Shown piece after piece: positions 5,309-57,779 of a DNA stretch of 64,000 nucleotides. Made by a program: the position numbers and the translations under genes. Source of the DNA: Diplonema papillatum (lineage: Eukaryota > Euglenozoa > Diplonemea > Diplonemida > Diplonemidae). The notes beneath the pieces are model-generated. The model saw only the letters and a program-made list of their open reading frames with translations, had not been told where the DNA came from and did not search any database. The stretch is from positions 122,501-186,500 of the forward strand of contig JAPJBO010000275.1 in NCBI GenBank assembly GCA_030068145.1. The letters run 5' to 3'. Position 1 is the stretch's first letter. Every line of letters begins with the position of its first letter.

Positions 5309-5572
5309 ACTTCCGCCGGTAGAAACCTTGCCTAAAGAATTCAACTGCCTTCGGGTAGGCTAGTCTGACACTAGTTGTCGTCGGGAAAAAAAAAAAAAAA
5401 AAAGAGGAGCGGAACAGAAAAAAGAAGCAAATAAAAAAATAAAAAACGGTAAAAAGCGAGATCGAACCCACAACACAACTTCCGCCGGGAAAGGAAGACC
5501 TGCCTATAGAGAAATCAGCAGCCTTCGGGTGGGCTAGTCTGACGCTTGACACTTGCTGTCGTCGGGGGGGAG
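5309..5572 (+). repeat. Dispersed repeat family C, two copies upstream of the 7TM gene
   Basis: Two diverged copies (about 5309-5385 and 5478-5572) share ACTTCCGCCGG, GCCTTCGGGTAGGC, TAGTCTGAC and TTGTCGTCGGG in the same order. The GCCT-TCGGGT-AGGC part can form a small hairpin. A third copy lies at 26393-26472. The second copy ends less than 20 bp before the start codon of the 7TM gene, so it probably supplies part of its 5' leader. Confidence 0.7.
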
Positions 5573-5588
5573 AAAAGCAAAAGCGACC

Positions 5589-6737
5589 ATGCTTACCGAA
5601 GAGCAAGTGCAGGTGATCCAGCGGTGGTCCGCCGTGGCTTCGTTGCTGAGCATCGCGGGTTCTTGCTTCGTGATCGGGAGCTACGGGGTGTTGGTGAGGC
5701 TCCGGCACTTCACGATGAAGATGGTGTGCATCCTCTCGAGTCTCGACCTTGTGCTGCAGAGCGTCCGGATGTGCAAGTGGGTTCTAGGCGTCGACCGCTC
5801 GGCGAAGGAAGCCTGCGGCGCGTTCGCCTTCGCGGAGCAGGCGCTGTTCCTGCCGCCGCAGCTGTGGTGCTCGTGCATCGCGGGATGCCTGCTGTACGCG
5901 GCTTTCCGCAACAAGCCGAACCGGGTCATCATGCGCCAGCTCAACCACTACGCGCTCGCCTCCGTGGGCGTCCCCCTAGCAATGGCGGGCCTAGGCGCGG
6001 GGCTCGGTGCCCAAGGCGCCTCCCCAGTACTCGAGTGCGACATAGAACCGGGATTGGCGTCGCTGTGCCTTGTGTACGCTCCGCTGCTTCTGATGGCGGC
6101 ATTCAACATCGTCTCCGTCATGTTCGTGTGGAGACACGAGTCCAAACAAGCCGGCTCGTCCTTCCAAAACGCGGCGGTTCTGCGATACCTCGCGTACCCA
6201 ATCGTGGTCAGCACACTGGCCCTCCCCCCGATAGTCGAGGCTTGCCTGCTGGCGACGGCCCGTGGCGGCAACGCGGGGCCGCACCCCGCCCCGCCGTTCG
6301 CCGTGGCGCTCGCTTCGTCGATCTCGCGGCACGCGCAGGGCTTTTTTGTGGCCCTCCTGTTCTCGTGCGACAAGCTGATCCTGTCCGAGCTGACGGTGTC
6401 CGCCGTGCAGCTGATGCCCTGCTCCAGGGACGCCGCCGAGCCAGCCCGGCCTTCCGTCGCGCTGGCGCCGGCCGCCGCCCGCCAGCAAGCCGAGGCCCCC
6501 GTTGAGCTACGGGTGCTGCGCGAAGCGGCGGGCCCCGGCCTGCCCGCTGCGGCGGCCGCGGACGGGGGGAAGGCGTTCGGCGAGGAGGATGACGGCAAAA
6601 GCGAGGAGTCGCTGCCGTCGTACATGCGCGCGGACATGTCCGACAGCGGCGCGTTCGGCAACTCGCAAGACAGCAGGCTGGACGAGACGTATCCCTCCCT
6701 GTCGCCGGAGCGCCTGGCCTCTCACGAGTTGCTCTGA
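5589..6737 (+). CDS. Seven-TM receptor, cAMP-receptor (cAR)-like
   Basis: The single-exon frame of 382 codons starts at the first ATG after a dispersed repeat leader. Seven hydrophobic segments fall at about residues 14-37, 45-66, 82-104, 119-141, 156-180, 194-216 and 229-256, followed by a cytoplasmic-type tail of about 125 residues rich in Ala, Glu, Asp and Ser. TM1 to TM2 (FVIGSYGVLVRLRHF, then SSLDLVLQS) resembles the Dictyostelium cAMP-receptor/secretin-like class. By family this would be a plasma-membrane G-protein-coupled receptor; the ligand cannot be inferred. The C-terminal tail is duplicated downstream (6800-7525) with near identity. The cAR-like assignment is from memory of the family pattern. 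An unrelated 7TM protein is the alternative. Confidence 0.75.
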   Translation: MLTEEQVQVIQRWSAVASLLSIAGSCFVIGSYGVLVRLRHFTMKMVCILSSLDLVLQSVRMCKWVLGVDRSAKEACGAFAFAEQALFLPPQLWCSCIAGCLLYAAFRNKPNRVIMRQLNHYALASVGVPLAMAGLGAGLGAQGASPVLECDIEPGLASLCLVYAPLLLMAAFNIVSVMFVWRHESKQAGSSFQNAAVLRYLAYPIVVSTLALPPIVEACLLATARGGNAGPHPAPPFAVALASSISRHAQGFFVALLFSCDKLILSELTVSAVQLMPCSRDAAEPARPSVALAPAAARQQAEAPVELRVLREAAGPGLPAAAAADGGKAFGEEDDGKSEESLPSYMRADMSDSGAFGNSQDSRLDETYPSLSPERLASHELL

Positions 6738-6799: not shown

Positions 6800-7525
6800 T
6801 TCAGTAAAACGGCGGTTCTGTGATACCTCGCGTACTCGCGTACCCCATCGTGGTCAGCACACTGGGCCCTCCGGTGATCGTGAAGGGGTGGCATTGCGCA
6901 TCTGCACCTTTTCTTCGTTGAACTAGCATTTTGCAGGAGCAGCAGTAGCTGAACCAGGGCTCTTCCTTCGTCGTCTGCTCTCTATCTCGGTATTGCCAGG
7001 ACGCTTTTTGCGGCGCTGTCATGGCGCGGCCCATGCAAACGTGGCGCTTACGTGGCGGCCCCATCCCCCCCTCCTCTATTCGCCGCGGCGCTCGCTTCGT
7101 CCGCGGCGCGAGACGGGGGTTTTTGCGGCCCTCCGCAGGCACCTGTTCTCGTGCGACTACTGCTGATCCTGTCCGAGCTGACGGTGTCCGCCGTGCAGCT
7201 GATGCCCTGCTCCAGGGACGCCGCCGAGCCAGCCCGGCCTTCCGTCGCGCTGGCGCCGGCCGCCGCCCGCCAGCAAGCCGAGGCCCCCGTTGAGCTACGG
7301 GTGCTGCGCGAAGCGGCGGGCCCCGGCCTGCCCGCTGCGGCGGCCGCGGACGGGGGGAAGGCGTTCGGCGAGGAGGACGACGGCAAAAGCGAGGAGTCGC
7401 TGCCGTCGTACATGCGCGCGGACATGTCCGACAGCGGCGCGATCGGCAACTCGCAAGACAGCAGGCTGGACGAGACGTATCCCTCCCTGTCGCCGGAGCG
7501 CCTGGCCTCTCACGAGTTGCTCTGA
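6800..7525 (+). pseudogene. Partial downstream copy of the 7TM gene 3' half
   Basis: Blocks from TM6 onward of the 7TM gene recur here. The segment 6806-6870 matches about 6170-6235, and 7051-7160 matches about 6285-6375 with rearrangement. The segment 7163-7525 matches 6375-6737 without indels, and I count only two substitutions in 363 bp by eye. Similarity stops right after the TGA. The 5' part is eroded and lacks TM1-TM5, so it cannot encode a receptor, yet the tail frame stays open. The contrast between the eroded 5' part and the near-identical tail suggests recent duplication or gene conversion of the tail. Confidence 0.85.
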
Positions 7526-9376: not shown

Positions 9377-9572
9377 GCCACAGGCAAGTCCGGCGACGCC
9401 ATTGCGCTCGCAAAGGGCTCTCGAAGCTGCCCGTTACCTGTGTGACATCATCGCTTTTGCACTTGAAATCACTGAAAACAAGCCCAGCTCCCAGGTGACC
9501 GATTGACTTTATCGCCCGAAATCACGGAAGAAACAAAGAAAAGAAGAAAGCAAAAGGAACCAAGCGACCACA

Positions 9573-10340
9573 ATGAAGAAGCCTGTCGTGATTGACATCC
9601 TCTTCGGTAAGGAGACAGCTCCTGTGGATGACCTGCGAAAGCTGCTGCTGATGCAGCTGTGCTTCTTCACCACGCTCAACACCGTCTCGGCTATCATCAG
9701 CATCACGACGAAGGAGGTGAGCGACGCGGAGCGGTCGTCTGTTATTGTAGGGGTCATCCTGCTTTGGTCGTGCATCCCTTTCGGCCTGCGGGGCGCGTAC
9801 GTCCGCAACGCGGGGATGATCTCCTTTTTCGTCCTGTACGGGCTGCTGTCCGGCGCGGCTCGTTCGGTCTTGCGCATCGTGGCCGCGGTGATGGTCGCGT
9901 CTTCCTGCCAGATGGAGCAGACCGCCTTCAAAGGCTGCACGGCGGCGTCGAGCGCGGGACTGTCGTGCCTCCTCGACTCGTCGTGCACCCGCACCATGAT
10001 CGAGATCTGGAACGACAACCGCGACGTGGCCGAGTACCCGAACTCCTGCAAAGCCTGGGGCGTGAACGACTGCAAAAACGCGCCGATCACCCAAACGTCG
10101 ATGGGCTTCAACGGGATGAAGGTGTTCTACCTCCTGATCGACGTCTTCACGGCGTGCATGCCTGTCTACGTCGCCTTCCTCTACTTCGCCCGCCTCGAAG
10201 CGCACAGGGCCGCCCAAGGGGCCACCCCCGACCTCCAAAGCCTCAATGAACAGCTCTGCACGGCCACCGCGGTCGAAAAGAACAGGGACAGCATGCGAGA
10301 TCCGATGCGGGACTCTTTGGCAGAACCTCTGGTCACGTAG
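9573..10340 (+). CDS. Four-TM membrane protein, paralogue of the gene at 18731
   Basis: Single-exon frame of 255 codons, starting at the ATG in CCACAATGAAGAAG. Four hydrophobic stretches lie at about residues 24-46, 52-70, 80-106 and 184-208. Between the third and fourth is a loop of about 75 residues with six or more cysteines, including FKGC, SCKAWG and DCKN, probably disulphide-bonded on the outer face. The alignment with the second paralogue runs from residue 1 (PxVxDxxFG) through RNAGMxSFFVLYG and LExHRAA. I do not recognise the family. The short tail ends with repeated MRDPMRD-like basic/acidic units. The last nine codons and the 3' flank are repeated twice more downstream. Confidence 0.75.
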   Translation: MKKPVVIDILFGKETAPVDDLRKLLLMQLCFFTTLNTVSAIISITTKEVSDAERSSVIVGVILLWSCIPFGLRGAYVRNAGMISFFVLYGLLSGAARSVLRIVAAVMVASSCQMEQTAFKGCTAASSAGLSCLLDSSCTRTMIEIWNDNRDVAEYPNSCKAWGVNDCKNAPITQTSMGFNGMKVFYLLIDVFTACMPVYVAFLYFARLEAHRAAQGATPDLQSLNEQLCTATAVEKNRDSMRDPMRDSLAEPLVT

Positions 10341-18630: not shown

Positions 18631-18730
18631 ATGTCTACACACAAAAAAAAAACAAACAAAAAGACTGCTCTCTTCGCAGGCAACGGACTGAACGATTATC
18701 GCCGGGGACAAAACAAAAAGAGAAAGGAGA

Positions 18731-19735
18731 ATGCCGCGGCCACTTGTCGTGGACGTCGTGTTCGGCAACCGGATGGCGAGCATCGAAGAGCTCCGGCGCA
18801 TGCTGCTGTTCCAGCTGTGCCTCTTCTCGGTCCTGAACATAATCGTCGCCTCGGTCAACCTCGGCACCCGAGACATCACCGGCGCGGAGCGGACGCCGAT
18901 AATAACCGGCATGCTCCTCCTCGCGACCTGCGTACCGTTCGGGTTCCGCGGGGCCTGGACCCGCAACGCGGGGATGCTCTCGTTCTTCGTGCTGTACGGC
19001 GTCCTCGCCGGCGCCGCGCGGACGGTCACCCGCATCACGGGATCGGTGGTGGTGTCGGTTTCGTGCCACATCGACCAAGCGTCGTTCCGAGGGTGCATCG
19101 TGCAGGAGCTGCCCTGCTTGGTCAACTCGACGTGCGCGAGCACCGTCCTCCGCGAGTGGAACGCCGGGCGGGACACCGCCGTCAACCCGCACAGCTGCGA
19201 GGCGTGGGGTTACGACGAGTGCCGGAACATACCCGACATAGAGGGGATCCACCTCGGCATCACCGACTTGTCCCTCGCGTTTCTGATCGTCGATATCTTC
19301 ACGTCGTGCCTGCCGGTGTACGTAGCGTACTTGTACATCGTCCGGCTTGAATCCCACCGGGCGGCCACGCATCAGACCGCCGATTTGTCGAGCGAGCTGG
19401 ACCTGGAGAGCGGCGCGGGCTCCGTGCACGATGCAAGCAACCAGAATCTGAAAAGCGAGCCCCACCCTCTCGCGTCCTTCAGCTCGCCGGCCGACGCCGC
19501 GATGCGCGACACGTCGCCGCTGTCGAAGCGCAACTACTCGCCGCCGACCGGCAGCTTGACGCCGGCCCGCAACAACAGCCCGTTCACGCTGTGGAACGAG
19601 TCGCGGCTCCTGCCGGAGGCGGCTGCGGACGAGAAGGACAAGCGGTACACCTACGCTATGTCGAAGGCAGAAGGCGCACCGCCGGCGGTCGAGCTGCCTA
19701 CACCGCGAGGCCACACGCCTTATTCCATCATGTAG
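18731..19735 (+). CDS. Four-TM membrane protein with long cytoplasmic tail
   Basis: Single-exon frame of 334 codons from the ATG in GGAGAATGCCGCGG. The first 210 residues align end to end with the gene at 9573: PLVVDVVFG, then hydrophobic segments at about 24-46, 52-70, 80-106 and 184-208, the motif RNAGMLSFFVLYG, and a cysteine-rich loop with FRGC, SCEAWG and ECRN. The tail (about 215-334) is absent from the first paralogue. It is hydrophilic and Ser/Pro-rich, with repeats of SP and TP that could be phosphorylated, and ends GHTPYSIM. I do not recognise the family; a small surface or endomembrane protein is likely. Decayed copies of the tail and 3' flank follow at 19882-20845. Confidence 0.8.
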   Translation: MPRPLVVDVVFGNRMASIEELRRMLLFQLCLFSVLNIIVASVNLGTRDITGAERTPIITGMLLLATCVPFGFRGAWTRNAGMLSFFVLYGVLAGAARTVTRITGSVVVSVSCHIDQASFRGCIVQELPCLVNSTCASTVLREWNAGRDTAVNPHSCEAWGYDECRNIPDIEGIHLGITDLSLAFLIVDIFTSCLPVYVAYLYIVRLESHRAATHQTADLSSELDLESGAGSVHDASNQNLKSEPHPLASFSSPADAAMRDTSPLSKRNYSPPTGSLTPARNNSPFTLWNESRLLPEAAADEKDKRYTYAMSKAEGAPPAVELPTPRGHTPYSIM

Positions 19736-31607: not shown

Positions 31608-33824
31608 ATGAAGCGGACGGCCGGCGCGTTCGCGCTGCCGCAGGCGGCGTTCAACCCGAAGTTCAGGCCCGACCCTCGCCAGGCGGCGGACCCGAGCTTG
31701 CACAAAATTGTGCTGCGGCGGCAGTGGGTGCCGAAGAAGTGGCACGTGGGCGAGGACCCGTGGGAAATGGACGTCAACTCCGTTAAAGGCTTCTCGAAGC
31801 GTAACTTGGCCGATGTCTACGCCGACAAGGTCTGTGCGTGTTTTTGTTCAGCTCGACGGCTTTGCCCTTTTCCTGTAAGTCTCGCGCGGCTGCGATACTG
31901 TGCCTGCGAAGTCGTGTCATCAAATGCCCAGATTATTGCACCGTGTAAATCTATACTGTTTTGACCGCCTGTCCAGTCGGTCTTACCGCCCCCCCCAACC
32001 AATCCACGCCGAGTGGATGCCGCGCTTCGGAGCGAATCGTCGTCCACCGCCTTCTGTGCCTGACTCTGCAAGCAAGTGGCGAGACGGTCTCATTGTGCAT
32101 GAAGCTTTCAAAAGCCGCGATTCAGCTACTTGTTCCCGGGTCTACTGGTAGCACGGGAAGGATTCAAGAAGGTTGTATAGGCTGTCTTGAAACCCCAACA
32201 CAACACAGGTACGGGCTTGCTTGGGCTTCGCTGACGCTGTGCCGTACTTTCTCGAGCTGAAGGAACGGGACATTCCACCGACAACGACGTTCATGAACTT
32301 GTACCTTGCTGCGGCGCAGAGATACAAGTTCATAGCAGACGTGGACGGTCGTCGAGCGGTATGCCGGGGGCAGCAATTCAAAAGAAATTGCCCACTTTTC
32401 TTTTTTAGCGAGTGCAAAGGGTTCGATTGGCAAAGAAAGAAAACAACCCAAAATACAAACGGGAACCCACTCGAACAACCCCGCGAAGTGTGCAAGTTTG
32501 GCGACGCGGGCAGCCGTCAGGTTCAGAAGATGGAAACAAATGGCGAACCAGGCTGCGAAGCAACGGCCCATTCTGGGCATTAGCTCCGGGCCCGCCCGTG
32601 ATGCAACGTCGAAGGCTTGCGCAGAGCGTGCGGCAGCCACCGTCTCCCCCCAACCCGTGCTCCTCCCTTGACGTCAACCTCACACAGGACGTTTGGCATA
32701 TCTACAAGGAGCTCTCGACGATGGGTGCAAAGCCTGACATCAACACGCTCGACTTGCTCAGAAACACGGTCTGTGACCCTTATTCCTCCTGTTATCCTCA
32801 TCCTCGTGTGCGGAAGAACGATCTTTGCCTCGCGAGGGGAGGTCTGCAAGTACTCGATCCTAACACTGCAAGTACTCGATCTTCGGTGCAATGGTAGGCG
32901 ACGGCGTCAGAAAGTAACATGAAGAGATAGCAGGCTCCTCCATGAGGTTCGTGAACTCAAAAGATCGTCAACGCAAAAATTGACTTGGCTTGGTTGGCGT
33001 GACCTACCTGACGTGCTGACTTTTTGGACTTGGCTTTGCCTTGACCGGATCGGCTGGCTGGCTTGCTTAGATGTCTGACAGGTGTTTCGAGTAGTTGTAG
33101 GTTACCGCAGCAATGAAATGTGGACTCGAAAGAGAACGCAGGCAGAGTGTTCGGAAGGAGACGAGGCTAGTCTTCCGCCGGCTGTACAAACACACACCGC
33201 GCTTGTTTCATTTGCTGCTCCTCTGAGTCTTCATTTTTACGCAACACGTCGAACAGATGCACTCCGTCTGCTATGAGTACTGCGAAGCTGTGAAGCAGAG
33301 GATCATCAAATCGGACCACGCCAAGGTCACCGCAGGCCTCCACAAGGCCCTCATGGATGTTTCCGAGATGGCTGCGGATGATATCAACACCTTTATCAAC
33401 AGCTTTGCGCACAGCGGCTCGGTATGCTCATTCGATTCAGCTGAAACTGGAGAACAAGGACCGTGGCCTCTCTCATTTGCCTGCCCAGTGCGTGGGTGGT
33501 GACCCCTCAACAGCCTCCCTGGCCCTGGCCCACGCCGGATGCCGCAACCCCAGCTACGGATCCGAAGACCCTAACCCCACAAGGGAGCAGCTGCCATTGG
33601 ATAAGTAAAGCGACAACAAGAGTAGTGGTATTTTATTGTTGCGGCCTCCCACCTATTCTACACCTCTCGTGTCACTGCACAAAGTCAGACTAGAGTCAAA
33701 CTCAACAGGGTCTTCTTTCCCCGCTGACAGTTTCAAGTCCGTTCCCTTGACTGCTGTTTCGCCAGATAGTAGGTAGGGACAGAAGGAATCTCATTGGTCC
33801 ATTCATGCGCGTCTTTAATTAGAA

Positions 33825-33884
<60 letters not shown>

Positions 33885-36800
33885 ACCTGATCTCTCAGCG
33901 TTGACATTCAGGGCACTGGGCAGAAGTCACATTCCACTCGCCACCGCTGTGATGAAGCGAAATGCTGTGGTTTAATTAACCAGTTGGATTCCTCTTGTTC
34001 GTAACAGTTCCAAGCTGACACTTCATTGCGCCAGGAACCTCAAGGGGAACAGCGCGAGAGGCACCATTCACGCTAAAAAGGCCCACTCACTTGCCTACCC
34101 AGTGCTTTCCTTGCGTCCTTCGGAAAGCGAAAACGTTGTCCCTCCCGAAGCTCGCAGCAAATCTCGCATGGTTATTTCGACATTTCCCCCCCTCGTGTCC
34201 AGGCTCAAAGGGAGTTTTCCTCTGGAAGCCCGATGATCAGCGGGCGGGGAATTTTTTAGTGTCTAGCTCAACACGCGCAATTTGTCAAGAACGGGCCCGG
34301 GGAGGTTATCCTTACAGGGTTCATTTTACTCCTCAGTGAGTTACGCCCGCCGGTCCATTCGGACTCGGGAGACACGGCATCTGGATGTGAATTTGGAAGG
34401 TGCCGTTTGCCGAAGCTAGTCGTGGCCCGATGAATCCGATATGCCCTGAGTAACTCACACATTAGAGGCGTTCGGCCATAACCCATCCAGTGATAGAATC
34501 ACGATCGAACAACCGTAGATACCAGGGACTAGAAACAGGTGGTACCAAAGCCTCCAGCTTAGTATCAGCACTGACTTCCCCATTCCCGCGAAGAAGACTG
34601 ATGCTAGCATGAAACATACATGAGAGGCAAGCATCGCATGAACACGAAACTAAGATTTCCCCCTGCGCAGGAAAACAGGTAGCACAAACTACCATACCAA
34701 CGGACCACCGCAAAGTTTCTTGTTTTTCCTTGTTCATCAGAACCAACACCAAGAACAACGACCCCTGTGCAGGAAAACGCGGTTGTGAAGGCGGCAGGCT
34801 CGGAATCAGCGGAGACCGATTTGGTGGTGCAAGCGGCGTACGCGAGCGGCTCGCCGCGGGCGGTGATGAAGATATGCGAAGACTTTCTGACCGCCGAACG
34901 AGAGCGGCGGTCGTGCACGGACATGCTTTCCGCGCACGAAAGCGCGCTCCAAGGCGATGGCGACACGACGAAGAGGTTGAGCAACGAGCAAGTGCGCAGG
35001 CTGGAGGAAGACGAGAGGAGGCAGGACTTGGCGAAGGGACAGGGCGTCCAGAGCATCGTCGGCATGCTCAAAGACCCGGCTGTGCTCACGCGGCTGGCCG
35101 AGCATGACTCGGTGCAGAAGCTGACGGAGGCAGAAGTTGTCACCGGATCCGTGCCGAGGCGGACCAAAAGCGGGAAGGCCATCCACTCCGAAGTCGTCAC
35201 CGAGTGGGAGGGCACCATCCTCATCGACAGCGACCTCAAGGAGATGCGCTCTCTCATCTCGATGATGCGGCGCCACCTCATCGAAGGGTACAACTTGCTG
35301 TGCAAAGAGCAGGTCGTGTTTTTACCTCTCTTACTTTTTTACTTTGAATTCGCCGTGTGGGGGGTTTTAGGCATACAGCAGCAAGCGAGCTTAGACGCGA
35401 ACTTGACAGTACTGGGGATATATGAGCCGACAGGCCTGCTTTTCTTGTGTTAACAATGCATTGTTGGTACTAAGAATTAGTAGTTGGCAGCGTACATGAA
35501 ACTTACCAAAGCAGGTGAGTTCCGCTAGTGCGCACAAACAAAAGAAAGCGCCGTACTAAGTTTTGGGGCAGAGGGAAAACTCCAGGGTCGGCTCTAGTCA
35601 TTGCAGCACGCCCGCATACCGAAGGTCTTTGACCTTGAATTCGGTTTCCGTGTGTACGTTGCTCCCGCGAACCCGTGGCCTCACGCTACCGGGGTCTTCC
35701 GGATCCCATGCATTGCCTGCTCCTGCCAGTAGTCATATGTTTGTTTTACGGAATAAGCCATACAAGTCTAAGAGTAACAGTGGGTCTGTAGACGGCTTAT
35801 TAAATCGGTGGCAATCCACGCGGGGAACATGTCTTTTGGGCCCAGTAGGATAACAATGGTAACTCACATGTCCGAAGAATCCAACTCGATTCAACTCCGT
35901 GGCCTTAAAACCGCGGGGTCGAGGTGGATACAATACCCCCCGTCCCACGCGCTTTGTGCCTTCTCGCGTCTTTCGACCCGTCCAGCGCGAACACGAACAC
36001 ACAGGTGCAGCGGCAAGGTGCTGCGGGGGACCATTTGAAGATCGACAACCAGGACATCATCGAGGAGGTGCTGCGGCGGTACCGGTCGGCCCTGCGCGCC
36101 TTGTGCATCCTCAACATCTACGAGGCTGACCGGATCGCGCCGCTGCGGGCCGAGATTATTGCCGACGTGTCGCTGCCCATCACGCTGAGCCAGCACGCGG
36201 ACGCCGAGGGCGACGTCACGATCGGGTGCTACATCGAGATCGACCGGATGCTGCCCGTCAACGACCGGTCGCAGCTGTCGCTGGAAACCGCGCGGATCGG
36301 GTTGTCGTACTACCAGCCGACGAGCATGTTGCCAGGCGGGATTTCGATGGAGGGGCTGCGGAGGAACAAGAGCGGCTTCGACGTGCTGCAGTTCTGCATG
36401 GCCGTCGACATCGTCGAGCCAGCCGACCTCTCGGCCCGGTACGACAGCAAAGACACGCGCGCCGTCGCGCGGCGGCTGTCGCAGGCAACGCAGAACCGCA
36501 AAGGCCTGAACACGACCCACTTTCTGTCGATCGTGCGGCGTGAAGCTGCTCGGCGGGATCCGGCCGTCCACCGCGTCCTCGTCGCCTGCGCGGAGCGCAT
36601 CATCGAGCGGGGTTCCGCGAACACGCAGCCGGACTTGGTCATGCAGCTGGCAGACCTCGCGTACCTGCGGGCCCACCTGTGGCCGTCGTCCGAGTTGAAC
36701 AACTCGTTCCTGACCATGGCCGCGACGAGCACTTCGTCCGTCGCGCGCAAATTCCTCTCCACCCTCCCCTTCTACACCGTCAAGAACTTCGACGACGTCG

Positions 36801-40169: not shown

Positions 40170-40178
40170 GATGACACA

Positions 40179-40558
<380 letters not shown>

Positions 40559-40700
40559 TGCTGGACGAAGTTGCCAGACAAAGGGCGAAGGAATGTGTTG
40601 AACGGGCGTGAGGTCATGCGAGGCTACCCCTACACAACAAGACACACAAACACGAGAGGAAAAGGTCCTGAGGGGAAAAACGACACACGATGGGGTACAG
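40559..40700 (+). repeat. Dispersed repeat family F
   Basis: GCTGGACGAAGTTGCCAGAC, GAGGTCATGCGAGGCTACCC, CTACACAACAAGACACACAA, AGGTCCTGAGGGG. Third copy; the first part is truncated where it meets the ACT array. Confidence 0.7.
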
Positions 40701-45333: not shown

Positions 45334-45528
45334 TTGTCTGACTTGCGCTACTACTTCGCCAAGGCCGATGTGCCCGAAGGAATGCGAAGAGTTCAGCCTT
45401 CCATACGCATAGACGCCCCAGTCATGTCGTCTCGTGCCCAGAAAGTTGCGTTTCTGCACGCCCACTATGCCTGCTGCGTGAGCAGTCTACACTTCTTGCA
45501 ACGTCACAACGTGGTAAGCCACAACTGA
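45334..45528 (+). other. Short open frame near the element's right end
   Basis: A 60-codon frame (LRYYFAKADVPEGMRRVQPS, then SSRAQKVAFLHAHYACC) ends at a GTAAGC that could be a splice donor. It might be an exon of an element gene or of an interrupted host gene. I find no in-frame continuation that I trust. Confidence 0.25.
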
Positions 45529-46012
45529 CAGGTGATAGATACAGCAGGGTAGCCAGGTTTGAAGGAATCCTGCATTTTGCGTTGTTTTGTGATCCTCTGC
45601 GTTATTTTCTGATTTGGATTGACCTTATGTGATATCATGTGATTTTTCTAGTGTGGTACTCATTTGCTTGCAAATGACTCCCCACTAATGCAACAAGACG
45701 ACGATTTGGATTGTTTTTTTGGGATTCCAAAAGTTGACCCATGACAATTTGTGATTCTCCCCGTCGACCCGATGACCATGACCACCCCATTAAACGATTC
45801 GTATCACAACCGTGATATACGGTAAAAAAAGAAGGAAATCACGATCTTGAACGTTCGCTGGACACCTCCCCGACCGAAAACTCCAACAGGGTGGGGGAAG
45901 GCCGGCACGGTCGGGGGATAGGAGAGCAAGAAAGCTCAAGACAACATCCCCTCCCCCCATCCCCCCCGTCTGCTCTCACGTCACCACCCCGCTGCTCACC
46001 TGCTGACATGCA

Positions 46013-49000
46013 ATGACGGAGCTGTGGGCACAGTTCTCAGAGCAGCTTCAGAAGAAGCTCGTCTCGATCGATGACCTCCTCCGCGCCACTCCGGCGGAGC
46101 TCGAAGAGATATTCACGGAGCATGGCTACCGCGCTTTGGAGCGCGCCCAGCTCCGCACGATGTGGTACGAGAACCGGAACAGAGCCGCCGGGGCGGAGAT
46201 CCCGATGGTCGCGCAGACGGCGATCGTCCCGACGCCGGCCCGCGAGTTCACCGACGTGAAAATCCTCCTCGAGCACTACATCTGCCCGGAGCCGCATATG
46301 GCCGTCAGCATCGTAGAACTCGAGAGGGTCGCAAACCCCGTTTTGCAGAAGCGGTTCGAGCGCCGAAAAGCCGAGCTCTCCGGCGGCGTCAACGAGGTCG
46401 TCGTGCGGCGGTTCCACTCGCCGGTGCTGAACAACGCGAAGATCCAAGACGTCGGGTTCACGCTGCCGTCCGAAGAGTCGCAGCAGTGCTTCCGGTTCCT
46501 GACCAAAGCCCCGGCGACGCACCCGCCGGGAGCGTACAAACTGCTGCTGTGCGACGTGGCCGTCGGCAAGTACAAGGCCGTCAGCGGCGACGGCGCGAGC
46601 ATCACGCCCGAGCAGCTGGCCTCCGAAGCGTTCGACTCTGTGTACCTCTTCTACTCCGGCAGCGCCGTCGACGCCTCGACGCCCGACGAGTTCATCCTGT
46701 TCCACCCGGACCAGATCCTCCCCCGGCACATCGTCACCTTCCTCGTCCACGCGTCGCTCGGCTCGCCCAGCCACTCCCCTTTACGCAGCCCGTCTTCCCT
46801 CCACGACTCCTACGACTACTCCAGACGCGACCTTGTCGCCGTGGTTTGCCCTTTTTTCAACAATCAATCGTAAACTCGAAAGAGAACGCTGGGCAACGTA
46901 TTTGGCAGGAGATTAGCCGCTTACGATCATGTTCACTCACTAACAACGACTAACTTCCCCCGGCACATACACACAAACAAAACAACAAACATCATTTTTT
47001 TTAGAGTTATAGTTAAGGCGTCGGTCGCAGGATAGCCAAGGTGAGTAAAAGTGAAATAGTACGTACAGTAGTGAGTAAAGAAGACGTAGAGAAGAGAACG
47101 AGTGTGAAAGGACGGAGGTAGTTCAAACTACCTGACCGACGGAGACCGGAGACCACCGCAACTTTTCTTGCGTTCCCCACATACCACACAACCACCCCAA
47201 TAACAACGGCCCCCTCTGCAGCAAACGCAGCAGCCGCACAAACACGGCGCGCCGACGAAGTATTGGCTGGTCGCTGAGAACCAGCTTGTGAACGGGGACT
47301 CGCTCCTGGTTGGAGAACACCGGGGGAAGAAGTTCGTCAGTTTGACGGAAGGCACCGAGACGCAGGTGTCGGAACTGAAGACGCGGCGGCAGGTGCTCGA
47401 CCGAAGCGTGGATCACTTGAAAGCCCAGCTCAAAGAATTGGATGTGACGAAGGACCGGCATGAAGAAGTCGAGGCGGCCACCATTTCGTACGTTCGGTCG
47501 CAGGCCGACATCTTGCTCGAGCTGCTGGCGGAGCGGCGAGACGAGGCTGTTCGGCAGGTCGAGACCAAGACGCGCGCCGTCGTCAGCAAAATGAACGAAG
47601 ACTACTCCACCATCTCGTCGCTCCTGCACACCCTGGAGGGCTACTCGGAGCGCGTCCAGGGCATGCTCTCCCTGTCGCAGTCCGGCCAGGAAGACTTCGT
47701 CTTGAAGTCTTCGTCATTTCTACAGGTCTGCTTCACCCTGGATCTCCCCCACTCCCCGCGGGGTTCACTACCAGCATCTTGAGATCTCTGGACTGACCGA
47801 GGCTTGTACCGCGCAACGGACAATCTTGGTCGGGCTGACTGAGGTTTACCCCCGAGCTTAGACAAGCAGAATTGTCTAAGGGGTGGATTGTTCGCCCACT
47901 TACAGGGAACGTGAGCTGGGTCTAGATCGTCGTTAGACAGGTTGTTTTTACCCTACTGATGGAGAGAAAGCCCATCAGGCCAGCGCGTTCCGACAGCAAT
48001 ACGGGGTAGTACGAGAGGAACTCCCGTTTCTAGTCCCTGGTATCTACGGTTGTTCGATCGGACAGTGCCGTGATGCTACCACTGGATGGATTATGGCTGA
48101 ACGCCTCTGAGCCAGAACGCAGTCTAAAGGAATGCGTGAGTCACGCCGACGGCAATACCTTCCCATTCAATCTGGAAAAGAATTACACGACTGGAAAAAC
48201 TACACGACACACAGGAAATGAGTGCCTGGCAGCCTTCATACTCCATTCACACCTCTCTCTCCCTGCCGCCGCCCGTTGAGATGAACTTCGATATCGAGGG
48301 CGCCCTGCAAGCAACAGACGCGCTGATGCTGGCGGTATGCATGCTTGGATATATTGTTAGGGGTAGTGGTGGGGAGGTGCGACGGGCCATCCAAACTGCA
48401 AGAAAATCTTCTCTCCGATCGCTTTGGTACCGGGACGACTGGTGGTGCCAACAGCTTTGAATCCTCCTTACTCTTGTTCTCCCAAGAAGACCTGACACAC
48501 CACGCATGCAAGGCGGTGTCCTGGATGCAAGGAGTATGTTCTGCTTAAGCATCGAGCTAAATTTTACTTCCCCACACAGGAGGCGCAGCCGAGTCGGCCG
48601 AACCACCGGACGCCGAGGCTGCATGACAAGCAGCCTGCGAGGGAGCGCGAGCGGGTAGACCGAGTTCGGGACGTGGCGTACGAGAAGGTTGTCATCGAGG
48701 AAGGCCGCACCCGCAGCGTCTCACCCGACCGCGCCAGCAGCGTCCGCGCCGCCGCCGCCGCCGCCGCGCGTTCGAAGACGCCCGCCAGCCTTCCCCCGGC
48801 AGCTGCAGCGGCAGCGGCGGCGCCGAACAAGAACTACCTCCAACACCAACACCAACAGCACCAGCTCCAACACCAGCACCAGCACCAACAGCATCAGCAC
48901 CACCGAGTGGCCAGCGGCACACCCACTTCTCAGCAGCTTCCACCGCCGGCGCAGGCGCCGAACACGCACAAGCACCCGCCGATGCAGCAGCTGGACTTCG

Positions 49001-50943
49001 GCAACGCGTGGGACGGCAACACGTCCATGCACGGGCACCCGACGCCGCCGCTGAGCGCAACGCCGGTGGGGGGTCCTGCTGGGGGCCCGGCGGCGCCTGC
49101 CGCCGCCGCGCACAAACCGCGGTCCCGCGCGAATTCGAGGAGCAACACGCCGAACAGGAGGCCGAATCGGTCTGCGTCGCGGTCCGGCGTGCCGAGCTTC
49201 CACGTCGTGCTGGTGGGCGACGCCGCCGTCGGGAAAACGAGGCTGATGGAAGCGTGGCTGGGAGAGGACCCTCCGCGCGGCGACGAGCTGGCGATGTACT
49301 ACCCGTCGCTCGAGCCGAAGTCGCGGCACTTCACCGTCATCACCGGTAAGAGCAAATTGTCCATCACCATGACCGACACCCCCGGCTCGCAGCTTTTCCC
49401 CGAAGCCTTCGCCACCGCGGACGCCGCCGTGCTTGTCTTCGACTGCACCAACCACACGTCGTACGACAACATCAGCAAGTGTGCCTTTTTCTTTGTCGTC
49501 GGTCGTACAAGACCGAAGATCTTAGAAGATTAATACTATTCCGACGAGAACTGGCACTTGCCAAGCCCTTGCGGATCGACCCGGAAACAGCCAGAACGGC
49601 CCGGAAAGTCCAACCGCGAAAGCGAGCGGGAACAAACTTGACTTTGCTCTGAAGGCCCAGTGTCCGACTCCAGCTCGGGGTTTGGCTTTTTCGACACATG
49701 GATAATCTTATGTCCCTCGTCCGTAAGGGGGTTAAGGTTATTACCCTGAGAAACCCCGAGAGAGATTTTTCCATTTTCTTTTTGTATAAGCACCTGCTTT
49801 GTAGGAAATGCTTGAGGAGACTGCCAGTTGCGATAAATCAAAGGAGGTAAATGTGCTGTAGCCCACACGAAACACAGGTAAATCTGGGTTTAGTGGCGAG
49901 CGTTAGCGTTCAACAAAAAAGACCCACTTTGTAGTTGTATTGTTTTCTCCCCCTCTAGCCTCCTTCGAAATGAGCACAAGGCAGTCCCTCGAGTATTTTG
50001 TTGCGATAGTGGGGGTCACCGCCATGCCTTTCCATTGTGCTACCGAAGCTCGCAGCAGTAGCGTTCTCCCTAGGTGAAACATAGACGTTCTAACGTGCTT
50101 CTCGCTTGAGTCGCAGGAAGCACCTTTTCCAAACTACAGGTGGTACTCGTACTTGCCGCACGGTGTTCCGGTCGCGCTCTGTGGCAACAAAAGCAATGAA
50201 AGCGCTCGTGTCATCAAGGCGAAGGACATCACGTTCCACAGGCATGTCTCTTCGTGTCTTTTCTCGTAAGAATGATACCACTTGCTTGGTCGCCGATCAC
50301 CCGGCACCGACCTTCGCTAAAAGGAGTCTTACTCTATAAAAGCAGCGACGCGGACGAACCGTCCCTTTCTGTAGCTATGCATGTATTCTGGGGCTGTGGT
50401 TGTATGAGTGGGGAGTCATTTGTCAAGCGCGTTATGTTCGTGCATGTGTGTACTCCTGGTCATCACTACCGCGCTGACCTCCCCCAAGAACACAACACGA
50501 ACCGCGTCAAAACGTGTGGCAGAAACATAAGGCTTCCTTCTGGTCTGACCCCGGATGGAGATGAACCTTTTCTTCGACTTATTTTGATGCGTTCTTTTTC
50601 TCGTCGGTATTATAAGTTTGTCCAGAACTTGTGGATCATCAAGGCCTCTAAGGCCAGTCCCTCCAGGAAAGTTGACTCACACCAAGGCTTCGAAAGCCCG
50701 GTCCTTTAAAAAAATTGATTCTTGTTCCCTCTGGCTGTAAGGCCCTTCATCAACTCTCGTAGTTTCACCTTACTCTGCAACAGGGAAGTGAACACCGCGC
50801 TGAAGACGAAGACTCCTCTCGTCAACTACTACGACATCTCCGTTGCCGCGCGTTATAATGTGGACAAGCCGTGGACGTGGATCTGCAGGAAGCTGTTGAA
50901 GGATTCACATGTCGTGGTCAAGGAGATAATCTCCACTTTCTAA
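46013..50943 (+). CDS. PARP-like / B-box-coiled-coil / Ran-like fusion protein, six exons (predicted)
   Basis: Predicted exons: 46013-46843, 47222-47725, 48215-48334, 48580-49478, 50140-50265, 50784-50943 (879 aa; phases 0,0,0,2,2). Residues 10-50 could be a SAM-like helical domain. About 100-250 resemble a PARP catalytic domain (NPVLQKRFERRKAEL; LLLCDVAVGKY; DEFILFHPDQILPRHIVTF), but HGT is replaced by HSP and the GxYF tyrosine motif is absent. Residues 278-320 follow a B-box2 outline (KHGAPTKYW; GEHRGKKFVSLTE) with most zinc ligands replaced. About 320-485 form a B-box C-terminal coiled coil ending LPPPVEMNFDIEGAL. A Pro/Ala/His/Gln-rich linker (486-690) follows. Residues 690-879 are Ran-like (GDAAVGKT; VPVALCGNK; VIKAKDITFHR; YYDIS), but G3 is DTPGS, G4 is NKSN, and no acidic tail exists. 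A scaffold role is inferred. Two adjacent genes are the alternative. Confidence 0.68.
46844..47221 (+). other. Intron 1 of the PARP/Ran-like gene
   Basis: Donor GTTTGC (or GTGGTT three bases earlier, the same phase) and acceptor CTCTGCAG. It contains (CA)-rich and A-rich sequence, with no repeat that I recognise. If instead two genes are present, the boundary would lie here. Confidence 0.5.
47790..48145 (+). pseudogene. LSU rRNA 3'-end fragment inside an intron (sense)
   Basis: Reads GGTAGTACGAGAGGAACTCC, CTAGTCCCTGGTATCTACGG, CTACCACTGGATGGATTATG and GCTGAACGCCTCTGAGCCAG, the sarcin-ricin-adjacent and 3'-terminal 28S blocks in correct order. It fills most of the intron between exons 2 and 3 (47726-48214) of the PARP/Ran-like gene, with the intron's ends intact. 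Confidence 0.88.
48480..48578 (+). repeat. Diverged family B repeat ending at a 3' splice site
   Basis: CCAAGAAGACCTGACACACC, ACGCATGCAAGGC, GCTTAAGCATCGAGCTAAAT, TTTACTTCCCCACACAG follows the order of family B (GAAGAAGACTTG, CATGCATGAGAGGC, CTAAGATTTTCCCC). The CTAAATTTTACTTCCCC end abuts the predicted acceptor of exon 4. Confidence 0.5.
49780..50005 (+). repeat. Dispersed repeat family G in intron 4 of the PARP/Ran-like gene
   Basis: TTTGTAGGAAATGCTTGAGG, GTAAATGTGCTGTAGCCCAC, ACGAAACACAGGTAAATCTG, GGCAGTCCCTCGAGTATTTT. Lies within 49479-50139. Confidence 0.75.
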
Positions 50944-56200: not shown

Positions 56201-57779
56201 GATCAACGCCGCCAGACGCCGCGAGGTATTATCTGACAGTTCACTTCTTATTTCTTTTCAAAAGTACAGCCAGCTGATACTGCAGGGAATAGTTGCCAGT
56301 CTAGTACCTCTTGAGTTCGTGCTACCACGATTGTGGGATCGGGAGAACCTAGCACCCTTTGGTGACAAAAAGCGAAGAAGCACGAACCATTTTTTTGTCT
56401 GTTTGTTACGTCGCAGTGTTCCCCGCGAGGCCCTATGGCCATGGCGCCTGGACATTCTTTCAAAATCCATGGTAAAAAGGAAACCCGATATACCGCCGCG
56501 AGGCCCTATGGCCATGGCGCCTGGACATTCTTTCAAAATCCATGGTAAAAAGGAAACCCGATATACCGTCACTAAAAGGCATGAAAAGACATACCTTTCA
56601 GTGGCGGTATGTAAATAATGTTGTCGACAACGAAAGGCAAAAAATGACAAACCAAAACCATGAACCGTGGGTGGGTTTTCTCTGATAGTGGTGCACGCAG
56701 CCGTGTGAGGCTTGCATTATGACAAAGCCAGCAAGGAGTACAGCACAGCGGGGCGTTCTGCCGCAGTCCGTTCACGCGCTCTCTTCAATTCGAAGACGAG
56801 ACATTTGGCTTCACCCGGACATATACTCAGTCAATGCGGGAGTGAAAAAGTGCGGGAGTGGCCCCGCATTGAGGGAGTGAGGCCGACTGCACAAACGACC
56901 GCAAGACCACTCCCGCAATCCGGAGTGGAGTCCGGGGTGTACCTTAAGAGAGTCATAGTTACCCCCGCCGTTTACCCTGTTCTCTCGGGCACTGGGCAGA
57001 AGCCACATTCCACTCGCCACCTCTGTGTTGCTGTGGTTTAATTGATCAATAATCCGAGACACTCTGCCGTAGAGTGAGTATACGAAATCCACTCCAAACT
57101 AAAAAATCAGGGCTCGAATGCGTCGATGATGACCGACACGATACCGGATGCAGAGAGCTATGTCTCGGACGATGGCAGCACGTCGCAGGAAGGCGTTCCC
57201 GACGAGGATGAAAAGCCTGAAGACTATTTGCCACAGAACCTGGCCGTAGTGCTGGCCCACTGGGACAGGGCCCTGCAGTCTGACGATGTAAAGCAGCGTG
57301 GGACGATGTTCTTTCAACACTGGCAGGGCATCTCGAAGGCGAATCCCACCTCCGCATCTGTGGCTTCGGTGGCTCGACTGTGTGAACGCGCGTGCGAATA
57401 CCTGACCGGACTCCCGTACTTGGTAACAACATCCGGCCAGCGGGGGGCCGCGGTTTCTTTCGTCTTCTCTATTCCGCCTGGCCTCGCACCGCTGCAACAG
57501 AAGTTGATCGATTTTCTAACGAGCCTGCAGCACGTGCGACTCCTTCCCGAAGAAGAGGTAGTCACCCGTCGCTTGCACTGCAGCGCCGTCGTCATCGACG
57601 GTCTGTACACAAGCCATCTCGACCGCCACCGCCAGGATCTCGCCCAGCCTCGCCCCCCTGTTCTTGAAATCACGTCACATATCAGCCAGGTCCTTGCTGC
57701 CCGCATCCCGCTGTGGATCCTGAGAAACCTCCGGGCTTACTTCTTGCTGCGAAAACACAAAATTGAGACGGACACCTGA
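53259..57779 (+). CDS. Large conserved-looking protist protein with Asn-rich tract, two exons (predicted)
   Basis: Predicted exons: 53259-56225 and 57111-57779 (1211 aa, intron phase 0, donor GTATTA, acceptor ATCAG). Residues about 100-300 are well structured: YEVNWSPDTIKVECRASKKP, ERGVTFEGPAYLSERRVLS, VVHMTLYFKYG and VWLLWCRHVQLNG, a pattern that I associate from memory with hypothetical proteins of flagellated protists; this needs a search. About 310-335 is a charged helix (TKEERLKLKDRLHRSNERRR). About 400-480 is Pro/Ala-rich with a (His-Ser)n run. About 795-882 is a long Asn/Ser/Thr tract coded by AAC/AGC. The second exon (residues 990-1211) is helical with no known domain. Function is unknown. 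The long minus-strand frame opposite is a shadow of GC-rich codon use. Confidence 0.75.
55645..55910 (+). repeat. AAC/AGC-rich coding repeat (Asn/Ser tract)
   Basis: An in-frame run of AAC, AAC-AGC and related codons within the 1211-aa protein gene, giving N/S/T/K residues. The repeat is imperfect and keeps the frame. It encodes a disordered, possibly aggregation-prone segment. Confidence 0.9.
56786..57060 (-). pseudogene. 28S rRNA fragment with a 130-bp insertion
   Basis: The minus strand carries AACTATGACTCTCTTAAGGT (right part, 56941 onward) and AGCCAAATGTCTCGTCTTCG (left part, to 56810). These blocks are contiguous in other copies (33840-33862 and 43565-43580) but here are split by 56811-56940. 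Downstream blocks (GTTTACCC; CACTGGGCAGAAG; TTTAATTGATCAA) match 33870-33990. It lies antisense in the intron. Confidence 0.82.
56811..56940. mobile_element. 130-bp insert at the R2/group-I hotspot of 28S
   Basis: The insert interrupts AAGGT|AGCC of the 28S core, within a base of the cleavage site used by R2 retrotransposons. Its ends TCACCCGGA and TCCGGGGTGT are imperfect inverted repeats, and the inside holds repeated CGGGAGTG words in both orientations. It has no coding capacity. It could be a small inverted-repeat element or a remnant of a site-specific insertion. Confidence 0.55.

Follow-up and report, generated by a model that had tools for sequence, protein, structure and literature searches.

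The nearest known analogue of the candidate gene described here, which lies at 46013-50943 of a 64,000-nt stretch of Diplonema papillatum DNA (the window), is TRIM23, in which a B-box/coiled coil is likewise followed by a small GTPase. In the available part of its source, TRIM23 (ARD1) is given the order RING-B-box-B-box-coiled coil-ARF (PMC2533329). However, in the candidate no RING was found, the single B-box is without most zinc ligands, the GTPase is Ran-like rather than ARF, the N-terminus is PARP-like and GTPase residues have been lost. Inactive PARPs such as PARP9, placed in clade 3F with a Q-Y/S-T/S triad in the available text of PMC2964712, resemble the candidate in having a damaged triad within a multidomain protein, but other residues are lost and other partner domains (macro) are present. 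The term 'GTPase' did not occur in the available text of two PARP family surveys (PMC2964712, PMC1266365), nor did 'B-box' in that of PMC2964712. No paper joining PARP and Ran GTPase, PARP, B-box and small GTPase, or diplonemid, TRIM and PARP was found in a search missing most subscription journals.

D. papillatum is a diplonemid, a marine single-celled flagellate, and own-genome searches were run on its 271-Mb genome. A first-pass annotation of the window had proposed that splicing links a PARP-like domain, a B-box/coiled coil and a Ran-like GTPase in frame. Its naming of the three domains and its proposal of a single spliced gene were supported, the B-box-to-GTPase junction less well than the PARP-to-B-box junction. 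We class the locus as a candidate fusion of degenerate domains that is specific to its lineage. A single gene is favoured, not proven, and a joint transcript is inferred from splice signals and phase. The six exons joined in phase give 850 codons including the stop, or 849 amino acids (aa), and 831 aa without the 54-nt exon; the earlier residue numbering, which ran to 879, implies slightly different junctions.

Domain content of the candidate protein

The N-terminal module is probably, not certainly, PARP-like, with borderline homology. The Pfam PARP family scored 26.0 bits (E 7.8e-6) on residues 76-250, which is 0.7 below the cut-off of 26.7, and 23.0 bits on the whole frame. The nearest PDB matches were the catalytic domains of PARP10 (0.0012, both halves) and PARP4 (0.012, second half). 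As read from the alignment, HSP at His135 stands at the HGT position, and Glu226 in 'DEFILF', which the first-pass annotation had not reported, aligns with the Glu of PARP4 'DEFVVY', the third residue of the H-Y-E triad. No GxYF Tyr motif was found in the PARP-like frame. Thus, of the H-Y-E triad and HGT/GxYF signature of the PARP family, His135 and Glu226 are kept and the Tyr motif is lost; the replacement of HGT and the absence of GxYF were both seen as previously claimed. Compared with PARP10, the PARP-like part has HSP for HGT, no GxYF Tyr and a spacing between the two matched stretches that is 11 residues shorter, and it keeps Glu226 where PARP10 has Ile. NCBIfam gave no PARP match. No relatives of the PARP frame (viral_contigs, genome_contigs) or of the B-box frame (viral_contigs) were found, as expected of viral, bacterial and archaeal collections.

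The N-terminal 58 residues were helical by AlphaFold2 (AF2) with low confidence. No SAM family was found by Pfam in aa 1-76 at E<=10, and the likeness to SAM is by eye only. SAM entries and one tankyrase SAM-PARP entry appeared in Foldseek only at E >5 and were not counted as evidence. ART domains bind NAD+. The first-pass annotation had also raised an ADP-ribose reader; no finding points there, and because the NAD+-pocket region is the damaged part, this role is not supported. Elsewhere in the genome, a PARP1-like gene (C2029:10917-15327) carries its GxYFA-bearing catalytic stretch in several degenerate tandem copies; this gene resembles the repeat-bounded genes described in the available text of PMC10161547.

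For the second module, an own-genome B-box profile was built from four loci (L051-L054) of six fetched; L055 and L056 were left out, and five further loci were read and likewise unused. Exon 2 with 18 residues of exon 3 scored 36.9 bits against this profile, while the best of 500 shuffles reached 9.1, and the B-box alone and the coil alone scored 11.9 and 15.3 bits, respectively. The four own-genome proteins share the B-box outline and the coil with exon 2. However, they keep the Cys ligands, and exon 2 retains two His columns of the alignment but has lost the Cys ones, which bears out the reported loss of most zinc ligands. No match to the zinc-binding B-box (PF00643) was found in the B-box piece at E<=10. 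Among the 23 Pfam B-box matches in the genome at E<=0.01 the B-box exon was not included, and an own-genome search with this exon at E<=0.1 returned itself only. The Pfam TRIM_CC value for the coil was 0.057, under its cut-off. Single-sequence AF2 gave a two-strand hairpin followed by a 111-residue helix (49-159, numbered from 47204) with a core predicted local distance difference test (pLDDT) score >90; Foldseek of this model returned nothing at E<=0.001. No RING finger was found by Pfam in three joined or single frames (E<=1) or in pieces (E<=10, where HMMER filters drop most matches >0.1). In the 600-740 bases read for each of L051-L054, no PARP or GTPase domain accompanied the B-box.

The third module, joined from three exons, matched Ran/Gsp1 in the PDB at 5e-22 to 4e-20, followed by Rab26 at 8.7e-9. 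Among the best 60 of 166 matches, Ran/Gsp1 are its closest solved relatives by sequence, with the GNK, FHR, YYDIS and KP.W..RKL segments in common. Pfam Ras matched at 3.9e-14, and NCBIfam small_GTP was below its cut-off. The P-loop GDAAVGKT and the G3 Asp (DTPG), which is the Mg-site Asp, are kept. DTPGS stands for DTAGQ, NKSN for NKVD and SVA (ISVA) for SAK, all as listed in the first-pass annotation. In addition, Ser replaces the switch I Thr, switch II is four residues shorter and there is an insert before YYDIS. The acidic C-terminal tail of Ran is absent, as the frame stops after KEIISTF. The genome also has a canonical Ran (C684 and C665), which over one exon shares 78-79% identity with a comparison Ran sequence; because it is present there, the candidate's GTPase is, by sequence, a divergent extra copy beside it. 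In Ras-family proteins, loss of the Gln argues against intrinsic hydrolysis and changes in NKxD and SAK argue against normal guanine selectivity, and an intact P-loop leaves phosphate binding possible. Since the G1 P-loop and G3 Asp are kept, the GTPase may still bind nucleotide.

The deciding residues had been described as lost in all three modules. This was too strong: the PARP Tyr motif, the B-box Cys residues and GTPase motifs are lost, but His135, Glu226, the P-loop and the G3 Asp are kept.

Splice junctions and the number of genes

The PARP-like open frame has 286 codons, from ATG 46013 to TAA 46871. The sole ATG between this TAA and 47222 is at 46929; it opens four codons and has no phase-0 GT donor. 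In the B-box exon there is no in-frame ATG ahead of the coil. Because it is homologous coding sequence without a usable start of its own, the predicted B-box exon must be joined by splicing to the PARP exon or to sequence further upstream, and the PARP exon would be the nearest source. Four ATGs at 45382-45741, 5' of the PARP frame, have phase-0 GT donors in short frames, none of them GTNTG. A very strong consensus donor, aag/gtgagtaaa, is located at 47041, within the predicted intron 1. Positions 47031-47040 were also weighed as a possible 10-nt micro-exon.

GTNTGC occurred at one of the 45 GTs in the PARP frame and one of the 29 in the B-box frame, both in phase 0 and lying 27 and 54 nt before the stops, respectively; in the whole window it accounted for 72 of 3606 GTs. 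Seven donors were placed by homology, positioned by eye from alignments: gtatgg and gtatgc in the genome's own Ran, gtactg and gtatgc in a tubulin-like gene, gtaatc in the PARP1-like gene, and gtgtgc and gcatgt in the Ran-like GTPase. A second PARP1-like donor (gtatgc), whose downstream exon was not found, was left out of this tally, as were the last own-Ran intron and the L043 tubulin-like intron, the ends of which could not be placed. GTNTGC is a frequent, not a required, donor form.

The four exons that were scored (exons 1-4) showed codon use of coding type. The codon score was 0.32 bits/codon in exon 1 and -0.02 after donor 46844, and 0.30 in exon 2 and -0.14 after donor 47726. None of 409 18-codon windows of exons 1-2 was as low as 47726-47779. 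For the nine codons after donor 46844, 3.3% of 427 exon 1-2 windows and 31.6% of 3389 windows of other coding sequence were as low.

At the B-box-to-GTPase junction, inclusion or skipping of the 54-nt exon leaves the frame intact, since acceptors 48281 and 48580 are both phase 0. Exon 3, starting at 48281, scored 0.45 bits/codon, which was matched by 1.4% of random stop-free 22-codon windows. Position 48215 was set aside as the exon 3 acceptor; the stretch 48215-48280 scores as non-coding at 0.01 bits/codon, and 25% of random windows were as high. This link is the weak point of a one-gene model, and the GTPase may belong to a trans-spliced gene of its own.

Several results weigh against a single gene for a scaffold-type protein. 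Acceptor 48281 has a poor sequence (ttgag) and is followed by an exon that opens with ATG, as would an independent trans-spliced gene. GTNTGC was present in just three of the seven homology-placed donors. Among 3317 windows of other coding sequence, 18.2% were as low as 47726-47779, and the codon score after the homology-based GTPase donor 49479 was not below zero; because that stretch still scores 0.09, the fall in codon score at donors is a soft signal. A profile of three own-genome PARPs scored the PARP part at 1.7 bits, with four of 500 shuffles higher. Single-sequence AF2 of the PARP frame reached a pLDDT of only 40.6, and Foldseek of this model gave nothing at E<=0.001, the best match being a homeodomain (E 0.93). 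Finally, functional inertness is read from residues only.

The genome paper of the species, in its available text, describes features that bear on these junctions (PMC10161547). Essentially all mRNAs undergo spliced-leader trans-splicing, and gene arrays are probably co-transcribed. Introns occur in 41% of genes, mostly GT-AG with few GC-AG, and introns holding repeats are reported. The 5' untranslated regions (UTRs) are ~70 bp and the 3' UTRs have a median of ~800 bp. Ribosomal DNA (rDNA) units of ~7.6 kbp and ~3600 scattered 28S ribosomal RNA (rRNA) pieces are also described. In our searches, the 3' half of the spliced leader had 625 copies in the genome (328 forward, 297 reverse), compared with 0 for the reversed control, and rDNA copies were ~7.6 kb apart on several contigs. 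The 28S rRNA sequence in intron 2 covers 286 nt (47859-48144), about half of the intron, and is 95% identical to rDNA copies (40 of 1305 candidates scored, including the window itself). It is one of the species' dispersed pieces and has no bearing on the fusion either way. Further 28S rRNA fragments (Rfam RF02543) lie in the window at 33515-34201 and 56765-57048, both on the minus strand, in keeping with the scattered pieces.

A full fusion of the three modules in one gene, whatever its function or decay, is fairly probable, and the chances that one intron-containing gene encodes an 849-aa (or 831-aa) scaffold-type protein are slightly better than even. The alternative of two genes in one polycistron, unlikely but a serious contender, would pair a PARP-like/B-box protein with a Ran-like GTPase that is trans-spliced on its own and starts at ATG 48281 (or 48218). 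The B-box frame would then end at TGA 47780 or be spliced to a final exon so far unseen, and the 28S fragment would be located in the 3' UTR or between the genes. This would suit a coding signal that starts at 48281, an ATG, and an rRNA fragment between the B-box and GTPase parts. A spliced leader added at the possible acceptors 48215 or 48233 would leave 66 or 48 nt of 5' UTR, respectively, before ATG 48281, near the reported length, and the near-universal trans-splicing and long 3' UTRs of the species (in the available text of PMC10161547) agree with it as well. However, the coding signal of the B-box frame ends at a GTNTGC donor, 48281 and 48580 both offer phase-0 acceptors further on, and after acceptor 48215 the first ATG, 48218, falls in the stretch that scores as non-coding (0.01).

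A split into three genes, or into a PARP-like protein that terminates at TAA 46871 and an unrelated B-box gene 3' of it, is improbable. In its favour, the PARP frame is closed by a stop a short way past the domain, and the strong consensus donor at 47041, within what would be intron 1, suggests that other transcripts may exist. However, a B-box gene wholly 3' of the PARP stop would lack a start codon, ATG 46929 opening four codons with no phase-0 donor, and the codon score falls at donor 46844, over nine codons only. A decaying pseudogene of a once active fusion is very improbable: active-site residues are lost in all three modules, but the six exons are all open and in phase, codon use in exons 1-4 is of coding type, and no second genome copy was found for the B-box or GTPase part.

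A possible scaffold role

TRIM-type coiled coils are expected to form antiparallel dimers. For a single fused protein, the most likely role suggested by the residues is a dimeric TRIM-like scaffold that presents a Ran-like module unable to cycle, together with an inactive ART-like domain. The coiled coil would make an antiparallel dimer displaying the pseudo-ART and Ran-like modules in two copies each. The Ran-like module, which has the P-loop and Mg-site Asp and Ser for the catalytic Gln, would stay in one state and would serve as a fixed docking surface, and the ART-like domain would bind partner proteins without ADP-ribose transfer. The binding scaffold put forward in the first-pass annotation is thus retained as the most likely inference, not as a demonstrated function.

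We also considered a nucleotide sensor derived from the fusion of PARP, TRIM and Ran. In this case a Ran-derived domain without guanine recognition (NKSN, SVA) and with the phosphate/Mg core kept would read another nucleotide, on a TRIM-like dimer beside an ART-like domain with His and Glu. We regard such a sensor as a long shot.

If the locus encodes one protein, three signalling families would be joined for which no joint paper was found in the literature searched. A TRIM-like coil attached to a small GTPase would then be on record twice, in TRIM23 and here, the new example coming from a phylum far removed from animals. With catalytic residues missing from each of three modules in a single chain, the protein would clearly exemplify enzymes turned into scaffold parts, and this would be testable in a flagellate with published genome and RNA-seq data.

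Feature coordinates and further observations

Table 1. Exons, predicted introns and other features of the candidate gene (window positions).
Feature	Position	Strand	Details
Exon 1: helical N-terminus (aa 1-58) and PARP/ART-like domain (~aa 77-245)	46013..46843	+	Start ATG 46013; donor gtttgc
His135 codon of the PARP-like part	46415-46417	+	
Predicted intron 1, 378 nt	46844..47221	+	Donor gtttgc, acceptor ctctgcag; includes PARP-frame TAA 46871-46873
Exon 2: degenerate B-box and long coiled-coil helix	47222..47725	+	Own-genome B-box profile; AF2 helix; one GTNTGC, phase 0
Predicted intron 2, 555 nt	47726..48280	+	Donor gtctgc; weak acceptor cgttgag
28S rRNA fragment within intron 2	47842..47943	+	Rfam RF02543, 70.8 bits
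28S rRNA fragment within intron 2, continuation	47984..48136	+	Rfam RF02543, 117.4 bits
Exon 3, 54 nt, in frame and optional; begins ATG	48281..48334	+	Donor gtatgc; alternatively, an independent GTPase gene begins here
Exon 4: low-complexity linker and first part of Ran-like GTPase (GDAAVGKT, DTPGS)	48580..49478	+	Ran/Gsp1 and Pfam Ras matches
Exon 5: NKSN segment of GTPase; then predicted GC-AG intron	50140..50241	+	Ran/Gsp1 alignment unbroken across junctions
Exon 6: C-terminal GTPase part (YYDISVA ... KPWTWICRKL), stop	50784..50943	+	

Two pairs of similar open reading frames (ORFs), 9507-10340 with 18692-19735 and 5550-6737 with 6953-7525, were present in the window and were of multi-membrane-helix type by eye. 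Three of these four paired ORFs were scanned, with no Pfam match at E<=0.01. A long trinucleotide array at 40175-40600 was open in several frames on both strands, with poly-T/L/S/V translations. On many contigs of the genome there were 27 full-length beta-tubulin frames and 29 full-length tubulin frames ~43% identical to beta, which are probably alpha; each was uninterrupted, and they often alternated in clusters.

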